Source: Dehalococcoidia bacterium (GTDB lineage: Bacteria; Chloroflexota; Dehalococcoidia; UBA2979). From it: 64,000 nt of DNA. The stretch lies in assembly GCA_009379925.1 (NCBI GenBank), contig WHSU01000001.1, forward strand, positions 186,001-250,000, written 5' to 3'. Below, piece after piece: positions 6,488 through 38,406 of this stretch. The position numbers and the translations under genes were made by a program. Below the pieces are notes generated by a model. That model saw only the letters and a list, made by a program, of their open reading frames with translations, had not been told where the DNA came from and did no database searches. The number at the start of each line of letters is the position of its first letter. The stretch's first letter is position 1.

Positions 6488-7976
6488 CTACGGCGTGTAT
6501 CGCTCGGCCAGGAGCGCATCGGTCGAGACGATGCCGGTCACCAGCACCGAGCCATCCGGCAGCAGGGTGAGGTCATGGCCGAAGCGGTACTGCAGCATCG
6601 ACCCGGTCGCAACGAAGGAACGCGTTGCCGGATCGTAGATCTCCGCTGACTCCACGAGCGGCAGGTCGTGGTGCACGTCCTGTGCACCACCCGTGACAAG
6701 GACACGCCCATCCGCGAGGCGTACCGCCGCGTGGTCCTGGCGCGCATCGACGATGTCGCCGGCGAAGCTAAGTTCCTCTGTCACTGGGTCGAAGATGACC
6801 GCTTCGCGGGTCGCAGGCCCTCCTCCGTGACTGCTCGGGCCCGGTGCGGGCACCAGTGCGTCACGGTCAGAGCCGCCGACAATCAGGACGCGGCCATCCT
6901 GCAGGAGCGTTGCTGTTGGCCTGATTCCCGATGGCTAGACGTTCAGCGTCCGAAAGTCGCTGGACGCCGGCTCGAACATCGTCAGCGGACCGTCGCCGAC
7001 GACCAGCACGCGCCCGTCTTGAAGCAGTACGAGGGCTGGCGTCGTCTGCAGCGCGGGGCTCTCGCCCGCCGGCTCGAACAGGCCTGTCTCGGGGTCGTAG
7101 ATCTCCGCGGAAGCAAGCGCTTCGAGGCTGAACTCCGGGTTCCGCGACTCACGGAACCCACCCGCTACCAGCACGCGCCCGTCGCTCAATCGAATGGCAG
7201 CGTGTCCTGTCCGTGCCTCAATCAAGTCTCCAGTGGGAGAGAGCGCACCCGTCGAGGGATCGATGATCTCCGCCGACGCGAGCGGCGCGTTGCCACCACC
7301 CGCCACGAGCACCCGGCCGTCCTGAAGGAGGGTCGCGGTGTGGCGCCAGCGAGGCACGCCCAGCCGCGGTCCGGAAGCAAACACACCGGTCGAGGGGTCG
7401 AAGAACTGCGTGGATTGCAGGATGTCAGTCCGGGGCTGGATGTACTGGCTGCCGCCGGCGATCAGGACCCGCCCGTCATCAAGCACCGTCACGGTGTGCC
7501 CGCGCTCCGACGCTGGCCCGCCCGCTACGGCGGCGAAGGTCCCCGGTACCGCCGCGGCGACGGTGGGCTCCTCGTTCGGCGTGGCCGTCGGCGTGTCACT
7601 GGGCGGCGCTGACGTCGCGGCGCCGCTGTCCTCGTTGAGCACCGCCATGAGCAGCACGATTCCGGCCACCGCAGCCGCAGCCGCCCCGCCGGCCGTCAAC
7701 CACCCGAGCCACGAGACGATGACCGGCCGACGACGGAGAGTCCGGAGCCGGCCGGCCTCTCCGCGATACCACTCGCCGATCTCCTCCCGGCGGGAGACGC
7801 CGAGGCGGCCCAGCAGTTCGGAGACGTGGTACTTCGCGCCGGCCAGGCTGATGCCCAGCGTCTCGGCGATGCGTTCGTTCGTAGCCGGCGGCGACCAGGC
7901 GTGCCACCTCGCGCTGGCGCTCGGTGACTTCGGGTGCGTCGGCTGGCGGGCGGCCGTCCATGGGGGAATCCTGCAC
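6488..7976 (-). pseudogene. Decayed LuxR-HTH/transmembrane/Kelch-like sensor gene
   Basis: Reconstructed order: LuxR-type HTH ([15 protein letters not shown] then NERIAETLGI and KYHVSELLGRLGVSRREEI), one transmembrane helix (WLTAGGAAAAAVAGIVLLMA), a Ser/Thr/Pro linker and at least six Kelch-like repeats with the core LLQDGRVLVAGG. Two lesions break it. Near 7890 the HTH is split between frames; loss of two bases from TACACG best fits the intact paralog at 36847. At 6935-6937 an in-frame TAG interrupts the propeller, after which the same frame continues with another Kelch repeat (ATLLQDGRVLIVGG) to the stop at 6488. The intact form would be a membrane-tethered regulator of about 500 residues. 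Sequencing error cannot be excluded. Confidence 0.8.
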
Positions 7977-8034
7977 CGCCCAGCCGAGGTTTGCACTAGC
8001 CGATCATCCGTTCGACCGGCGCCGCTCGCCTCGC

Positions 8035-36765: not shown

Positions 36766-36846
36766 TCCACTCGTGATGAACGGGTAGTGCGCAGCCGGCC
36801 TACGATTCGCGACGATGCCTCCCGAGCATCACAACGAGGTAGAGCC

Positions 36847-38406
36847 ATGGTCGAGCGCCTGCCTTCCGGACCACCCGAGGTGACCCCGCGACAGCGCGAG
36901 GTGGCCCGGCTGGTGGCCGAAGGCAAGTCCAACGCCGAGATCGCCGAAGCCCTCGGCATCTCCCTCGACGGCGCGAAGTACCACGTCTCGGAACTCCTCG
37001 GCCGCCTCGGCCTACGCCGCCGCGAGCAGATCGCGGACTGGTATCGGGACGACCGCCGCGTTCCGTGGCGCCACCGCCTGCGCGCGCTCCTCGGACTGCC
37101 GCTCCTCGCGCTGGTCGGCGGCGGCGCCGCCATGGGCGCGGTGGCGGTCGTGGTGGCGGTGGCCTTGCTCTCGGGCGGCGAGGATGGGGGCGCGGCGAGG
37201 GGTCGTGGTGGGACGGTCGAGGCGAGCAGCACGGCGCCCGCCGTCACAACCACGCCCGCGGTACAGCTCGTAGACGGGCTACCGCGCGGGTCGGTCGGTC
37301 CGCTGCTCGTCTACGTGACCGAAGTCGGAAGGGCATCCGGCGGCGGCCGGAATTGGCCTCGCCTCAGCGTAGTGACGTACGACCTCGGCGCCGGGCGCGA
37401 GGTTGTGTCGTTCGAGGTAGGAGAGGTCGGCTCCTTCGCCGAATCGGTCGTGCTTGCCGACCATGAGGTCGTTGTGAACTTCGAACACACCCTGAGCGTG
37501 TTCGCCCTCAACGGCGACCATCTCCGCAACCTCCGTCAGACGCCGGTCGACCGAGAGACGGGCGGCTATGGCCGGCTGAGCGAAGTCGCGGTCTCCCACG
37601 ATGGCGATCTCCTAGCGGTCACTGAACGCACCGACCCGGAACCGCTACCATTTGTAGACAACTCCGTTGTGATCCTCGATGTGTCGACGGGCGACGAACT
37701 GCTCACCGTCCCCCTGAACGACCCCGGCTTCGAAGGATTGCGGGCGGAACTGAGGCCCCTCGTCTGGCGTGACGACAACGCGGCACTGGTGGTCTACGTC
37801 GTGACGAGCTACGAGGGTGGCGGGCGGCTGGCAACGGTCATGCTGGACGGCACGGTCCGGCTTCACGACACATCGGGCTTCACGTACGTCGCCCCCAATG
37901 GCCGCGTCGCGGCACACGGCACGGGCAGCCTGGGGTGCATGTTCATCAGCGGTCACTCAGTGACCGTCACCGACCTCGACACCGATCGCGTGCTCACCAC
38001 AGTCGAAGACGAATCACTCACGTTCGCCCCGCGCGAATGGTCTCCCGACAGCACCCAACTGCTGTACGCCACACGCCCGTTCCCCAGTGACCCGGAGGAG
38101 GTCGAGGATTGCGAGTGGCCCGCCGCCGAACCCGAGTGGCGCATCCTCTCCCTCGTAGGCGGCCGCGAGCCCGAACCAATCGACGATCCTCTCGCGGCAC
38201 ACGAGCTCTGGGGCGGGAGTCCGGCGGTCACGTTCACCTGCGACGGCGAACGCACAGCCGGCTGGTACGCCCGGTACGACCTGATGCTGCACGCGCCGAA
38301 CCGATGCATGGCTGAAAGTGACACCCCGACCGAGATCGTCTACGACGACGAGGTCATCGGTAGCGGCAACGCCGTCCGGGTGCTCGGTCAACTCGAGGTG
38401 GAATAG
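36847..38406 (+). CDS. Membrane-tethered LuxR-HTH regulator with extracellular beta-propeller-like sensor
   Basis: A 519-residue protein in an unusual order: cytoplasmic LuxR-type HTH at 10-70 ([18 protein letters not shown] and KYHVSELLGRLGLRRREQI), one transmembrane helix at about 81-108, then an outside domain of about 400 residues. That domain has repeated WD40/TolB-like units (LSEVAVSHDGDLLAV, WSPDSTQLLYAT). Like ToxR/CadC it would bind DNA while anchored in the membrane and sense an outside signal, but with a LuxR-type HTH. ATG 36847. It is the intact paralog of the decayed HTH-Kelch gene at 6488-7976. Target and signal unknown. Confidence 0.75.
   Translation: MVERLPSGPPEVTPRQREVARLVAEGKSNAEIAEALGISLDGAKYHVSELLGRLGLRRREQIADWYRDDRRVPWRHRLRALLGLPLLALVGGGAAMGAVAVVVAVALLSGGEDGGAARGRGGTVEASSTAPAVTTTPAVQLVDGLPRGSVGPLLVYVTEVGRASGGGRNWPRLSVVTYDLGAGREVVSFEVGEVGSFAESVVLADHEVVVNFEHTLSVFALNGDHLRNLRQTPVDRETGGYGRLSEVAVSHDGDLLAVTERTDPEPLPFVDNSVVILDVSTGDELLTVPLNDPGFEGLRAELRPLVWRDDNAALVVYVVTSYEGGGRLATVMLDGTVRLHDTSGFTYVAPNGRVAAHGTGSLGCMFISGHSVTVTDLDTDRVLTTVEDESLTFAPREWSPDSTQLLYATRPFPSDPEEVEDCEWPAAEPEWRILSLVGGREPEPIDDPLAAHELWGGSPAVTFTCDGERTAGWYARYDLMLHAPNRCMAESDTPTEIVYDDEVIGSGNAVRVLGQLEVE

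Follow-up and report, generated by a model that had tools for sequence, protein, structure and literature searches.

A sensor-swapping family of putative transmembrane LuxR-type regulators with a shared promoter box in Dehalococcoidia

The way in which transcription factors tethered to a membrane locate and select their DNA is still an open question, and most work on it has concerned ToxR and CadC. Together with TcpP and VtrA, these proteins belong to the known wider class of transmembrane transcription regulators (TTRs), defined by a predicted DNA-binding domain and at least one transmembrane (TM) region in one protein (PMC10269533); that paper describes Y_Y_Y domains as common in TTRs, and its main text makes no mention of LuxR or GerE domains. 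ToxR and CadC carry an OmpR-type winged helix. Sensor regulators of Bacteroidota have an outer propeller, Y_Y_Y and a C-terminal LuxR-type helix-turn-helix (HTH).

We analyzed a 64-kb stretch of Dehalococcoidia DNA, called the window throughout, which encodes a protein with both elements of the TTR definition of PMC10269533. As in ToxR, TcpP, CadC and VtrA (PMC10269533), its family joins a predicted cytoplasmic DNA-binding domain, one TM helix and an outer sensor in a single protein, and action from the membrane is predicted for it. Unlike these four, the family consists of many paralogues that have exchanged ectodomains and share a promoter box, and it differs from ToxR and CadC in having a GerE/NarL-type HTH and no Trans_reg_C, which places it outside the ToxR family proper. 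The Bacteroidota regulators likewise have a propeller outside and an HTH inside in one polypeptide, although they place the sensor first, the opposite order, and use other ectodomain families. The best reading is a new family within a known kind. An existing name, which the initial annotation had listed as a ground for rejection, did not turn up in Pfam, in NCBIfam or in the papers searched (subscription literature covered only in part). With a probability of roughly 0.7, we propose that the window protein is a self-regulating, one-component transmembrane transcription regulator that binds the box and arose by sensor grafting. New in this analysis is the shared promoter box of the family genes.

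Architecture of the window protein

The gene comprises the following features.

36847..38406, + strand: HTH-TM-ectodomain regulator gene (L001), 519 aa, ATG at 36847, stop at 38404-38406
36883..37041, + strand: LuxR/GerE HTH, residues 13-65 (Pfam PF00196; structure matches to NarL, VraR and GerE)
37081..37170, + strand: single membrane helix, residues ~79-108 (sole hydrophobic stretch, Kyte-Doolittle peak 2.3)
37171..37260, + strand: low-complexity linker, G-rich then T/P/A-rich (from the sequence)
37261..38403, + strand: ectodomain with WD40/TolB-like repeats and conserved cysteines, residues 139-519 (homologue profile)

The ATG was picked from the family alignment, the Shine-Dalgarno-like GAGG before it and the upstream box; an alternative, longer ORF has a GTG start and runs from 36577. 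The GerE match (E=1.5e-11, 44.2 bits against a Pfam cut-off of 23.5) identifies a LuxR/GerE HTH protein, with the recognition helix around S39-LDGAKYHVSELL, while Trans_reg_C and Response_reg gave no Pfam match at E<=1. The proposal that the HTH next to the inner end of the single membrane helix is LuxR-type rather than OmpR-type was borne out. Pfam revealed no receiver domain, the HTH beginning at residue 13, and no N-terminal autoinducer-binding domain, so the protein is neither a two-component response regulator nor an autoinducer-type LuxR; a RodZ-type HTH and DUF4115 were likewise absent from the Pfam matches. NarL/FixJ-type response regulators such as NarL, VraR and DevR have the same HTH as the family, but the family lacks their receiver domain, carries the HTH at the N-terminus and is membrane anchored.

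The ectodomain spans about 380 residues after the membrane helix and linker, and its propeller-like character emerged from a profile of 19 ectodomain homologues (A2), which matched the WD40 protein 2ymu (9.9e-28, summed repeats) and TolB 4r40 (1.7e-7) in the PDB. The single-sequence match to propellers was weak, and single-sequence AF2 models, both full-length and ectodomain-only, had a pLDDT of about 40, too poor for a blade count or fold search. The profile matches TolB/PD40 and WD40 propellers, but in this family a TM helix links the propeller-like part to a regulator. Other genomes from the same taxonomic family gave no full-length homologues at 1e-20. Homologues of the ectodomain occur fused to the HTH-TM module (L204, L216, L218, L219, L221) and, without an HTH, as predicted lipoproteins with a signal peptide and lipobox (such as L205-L209, L211-L213, L215 and L222).

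Across the family, one TM helix was predicted in 68/71 members, and 65/71 followed the positive-inside rule (mean K+R 3.8 before the helix versus 0.8 after); threonine and proline are roughly doubled after the helix, and several arginines precede it in the window protein. Because the HTH-free homologues are lipoproteins and the charge statistics agree, the topology very probably has the ectodomain outside and the HTH inside.

Ectodomains swapped on a constant HTH-TM module

The genome holds about ten HTH-TM genes, with no constant gene neighbors seen among them, and at E<=1e-14 the module is present in 29 of the 294 class genomes, with 16 family genes in one of them (G295). Both figures go beyond what chance would give. 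Among 400 genomes sampled across the phylum, members of the class included, one genome outside the class matched, through a short HTH-only stretch; matches in Actinobacteria and other groups were short proteins or frames with no TM helix adjoining the HTH. The family is therefore restricted to Chloroflexota at the sensitivity used. GerE was present in 73/73 members scanned. Conservation of the HTH, on which the initial annotation had made its reading depend, was high: N29, L36 and R59 are invariant, K44 and H46 near-invariant, and HTH residues, among them the lysine and histidine of the recognition helix, are at least 90% conserved.

The outer parts are far more varied. In the same genome they include PD40 (L004), LysM with an M23 peptidase (L005), Kelch repeats (L006 and also the broken copy described below), propeller-like domains (L001, L009, L012) and parts of no assigned type (L003, L008). 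Among the 73 members we identified PD40 in 13, DPPIV_N in 8 and SH3_3 in 3, with PQQ, WD40, RCC1, YCF48/BNR and M23 in one or two each, and comparing 71 ectodomains by BLAST gave 37 clusters, of which 31 have one member. In the adjacent genes L006 and L004, the HTH-TM module (104 aa) is shared at 95% identity (about 93% in DNA), and the similarity in both protein and DNA stops just past the membrane helix, their ectodomains being unrelated. The reverse case is L001 and L012, in which the module is 38% identical and the ectodomain 37% over 364 aa. At the level of sequence, then, sensor domains have been swapped on a constant HTH-TM module within a paralogous family, as first proposed. New receptors would arise from the grafting of new ectodomains onto duplicated modules.

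The Kelch copy had been described as a second family member; it is a real one, but it is not intact.

6488..7976, - strand: second family copy with Kelch ectodomain, not intact (reading frame changes within the HTH; in-frame TAG at 6935-6937)

The start of its HTH lies in one frame (ORF 7976-7596), the remaining HTH, TM helix and Kelch repeats lie in another (ORF 7996-6935), and the last repeats (6853-6488) are cut off by the TAG. This copy is either a decaying paralogue or reflects errors of the draft genome (71 contigs, 87% complete) at this place. Another copy in the same genome, L002 (G000:C55:161292-161606), ends after the TM helix, its ectodomain seeming to continue in another frame, so that decay of copies may be common.

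A promoter box at a fixed place before family genes

A dyad search of the upstream regions in this genome found no significant palindrome and led instead to CGGSTAGTG, common to the upstreams of five members. The absence of a dyad counts against our preferred reading, since a NarL-type protein that binds as a dimer would be expected to have one. The longer form TCGGSTAGTG has 10 sites in the 3.5-Mb genome (26 for the reversed control), four of them directly before family genes, and occurs before the window gene with one mismatch; none of the six other sites formed a convincing promoter-gene pair or a regulon comparable to the candidate one of G147 (below), a further point against that reading. 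The family-wide consensus is ATCGRGTAGKG; in most cases TANNNT and then the ATG come after it at a constant distance. In the window we found:

36779..36789, + strand: family promoter box (AACGGGTAGTG), second-best site of the window
36811..36816, + strand: -10-like GACGAT, at +29 relative to the box core (+28 is usual in the family), a weak hexamer inferred by position
7994..8002, - strand: box before the broken copy (CGGCTAGTG), the highest-scoring site in the window, with -10-like CAGGAT and ATG at the family spacing

The two best sites in the window scan scored 21.0 and 17.6, sit exactly before the two family genes, and are followed by a next-best site at 12.5. The window gene departs slightly from the family in that 65 bases separate the box core from its ATG, which is preceded by the Shine-Dalgarno-like GAGG.

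Exact boxes were present in 22 of 84 family upstreams and boxes with one mismatch in a further 22, compared to 0.1 and 5.3 in shuffles, while 83 upstreams of soluble LuxR genes gave 0 and 4, respectively. An EM model seeded with the box placed it in 74/79 non-redundant family upstreams, and aligning these on the box revealed two elements from outside the seed, a -10 (T28 A29 T33) and an ATG start (A40 T41 G42). From the positions of the -10 and ATG, most family mRNAs should be leaderless, with the box at about -43 to -30, and the conserved part of the box reaches upstream of -35. A strict box plus -10 pattern matched 14 times in 7 genomes versus 0 times for the reversed control. The box travels with the HTH-TM module rather than the ectodomain, being absent before the lipoprotein homologues of the latter. 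Five short relatives (L044, L049, L057, L058 and L059; 109-130 aa) consist of the HTH without a TM helix and have the same box upstream. The complement of the family box, CACTACCCGAT, agrees with the NarL heptamer TACYYMT (PMC4886647) at 5/7 positions.

Recognition helix, rival readings and candidate targets

The box varies with the recognition helix of the protein encoded behind it. Where helix residue 42 is G, A or S (DGAK, DAVK), 56/62 boxes contain TAG, versus 4/34 where it is T or V (xTVK), the others reading GGGTGAGG, GGGGAGGT, GGACGGGG and similar; this split at position 42 was chosen after inspecting the table of the same genomes. Within genomes having both helix kinds, TAG was found in 19/23 and 3/25 boxes, respectively. 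The raw p-value of 9e-15 is inflated by shared descent. The best tree, which is weakly supported, gave 10.7 independent pairs, of which about 8.4 were concordant and practically none opposite, while well-supported branches held only 3 independent pairs, which is not significant, so the covariation may partly reflect shared descent. We nevertheless consider it quite likely, given this pattern, that the box is read by direct, self-directed binding of the HTH. Two members (L313, L319) have arginine for lysine at helix position 44 (PDAVRF, PDAIRF) and boxes reading GGGGAGGG.

Under our main reading, the outer propeller-like domain would bind or sense something at the cell surface, and sensing would alter the pairing of the single-pass receptors and hence, by a signal-driven dimerization, of their NarL-type HTH domains at the inner face. 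The HTH pair would then bind ATCGRGTAGKG, overlapping the -35 of a promoter with a TANNNT -10. In this way an outside signal probably switches genes directly from the membrane through the box found before nearly every family gene, the first target of each regulator being its own gene (autoregulation). Placement of the box at -35 would fit a class II activator but also a repressor; activation is tentatively preferred in this reading. The presence of propellers and of LysM, M23 and SH3 domains suggests that the ligands may lie in the cell wall or at the surface.

At least one relative may also hold a neighboring gene set, mostly of exported proteins, under the same box. In genome G147, all 7 matches to the strict box plus -10 pattern lie on a single contig, and there a position weight matrix located ten boxes, mostly before predicted lipoproteins or membrane proteins, in a 28-kb stretch that also encodes one family regulator (at 144901, helix TLDGAKWHISE). 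This regulator has no box of its own, which weighs against the main reading, and sits after a boxed gene whose product is 44% identical over 208 aa to the regulator's own ectodomain. The stretch (G147:C23:131700-159200; L253, L254), with low GC3, pilus/Tad-like genes, an NlpC-like gene nearby and its ten box promoters, looks like a mobile or acquired region.

The island boxes before exported proteins would also fit the regulon of a dedicated ECF-like sigma factor that expresses the whole family, with the box as its core-promoter element and the HTH acting elsewhere, and the position of the box at -35, at a fixed distance from the -10, agrees with this. We regard such a factor as unlikely, because a single sigma factor would impose one sequence, whereas different helices go with different boxes inside single genomes; moreover, the -10 is an ordinary TANNNT and conservation extends upstream of -35. 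A distinctly doubtful alternative is that regulated proteolysis frees the HTH, which then acts in soluble form rather than from the membrane: the HTH-only relatives with the same box indicate that the domain may work off the membrane, but no protease gene is constantly linked to the family in its own genome. Since upstream regions pass down with related genes, the box could in principle be an inherited flank, or a common promoter type with no specific reader, yet this is very improbable given the lack of exact boxes before soluble LuxR genes, the strict-pattern matches against none in the reversed control, and the persistence of the box across genera even though the flank of L004 and L006 has diverged more quickly than their module. 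RodZ is an HTH-TM-ectodomain protein that need not be a regulator, but a similar role here, with the HTH binding protein rather than DNA in a structural membrane anchor, is scarcely credible, as the HTH is GerE-type, unlike that of RodZ, its recognition helix is conserved and covaries with the upstream DNA box, and many paralogues carry unrelated ectodomains.

If family members are indeed box-binding transmembrane regulators, they offer many natural receptors in which one DNA-reading module is combined with dozens of exchangeable sensors and a predicted site for each, making specificity, cross-talk and sensor grafting directly testable. They could also serve as a modular chassis for outside-sensing switches and give clues to the surface signals perceived by uncultured Chloroflexota. 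A more tentative idea, less likely than not, is that receptors of one cell that differ in ectodomain but have near-identical recognition helices all bind one box; separate surface signals would then converge on and cross-regulate a common pool of box promoters, the repertoire being renewed by grafting onto the constant module.

Two further variants of the module were observed. One relative (L189, G227:C5:207355-210443) has a family-type HTH without a TM helix in frame with SAICAR synthetase (PurC), which is either a real fusion or a wrong start, and a family box upstream. L149, L178, L184, L194 and about 20 others form a subfamily with an AT-hook-like arm, RGRPxHPD, ahead of the HTH.
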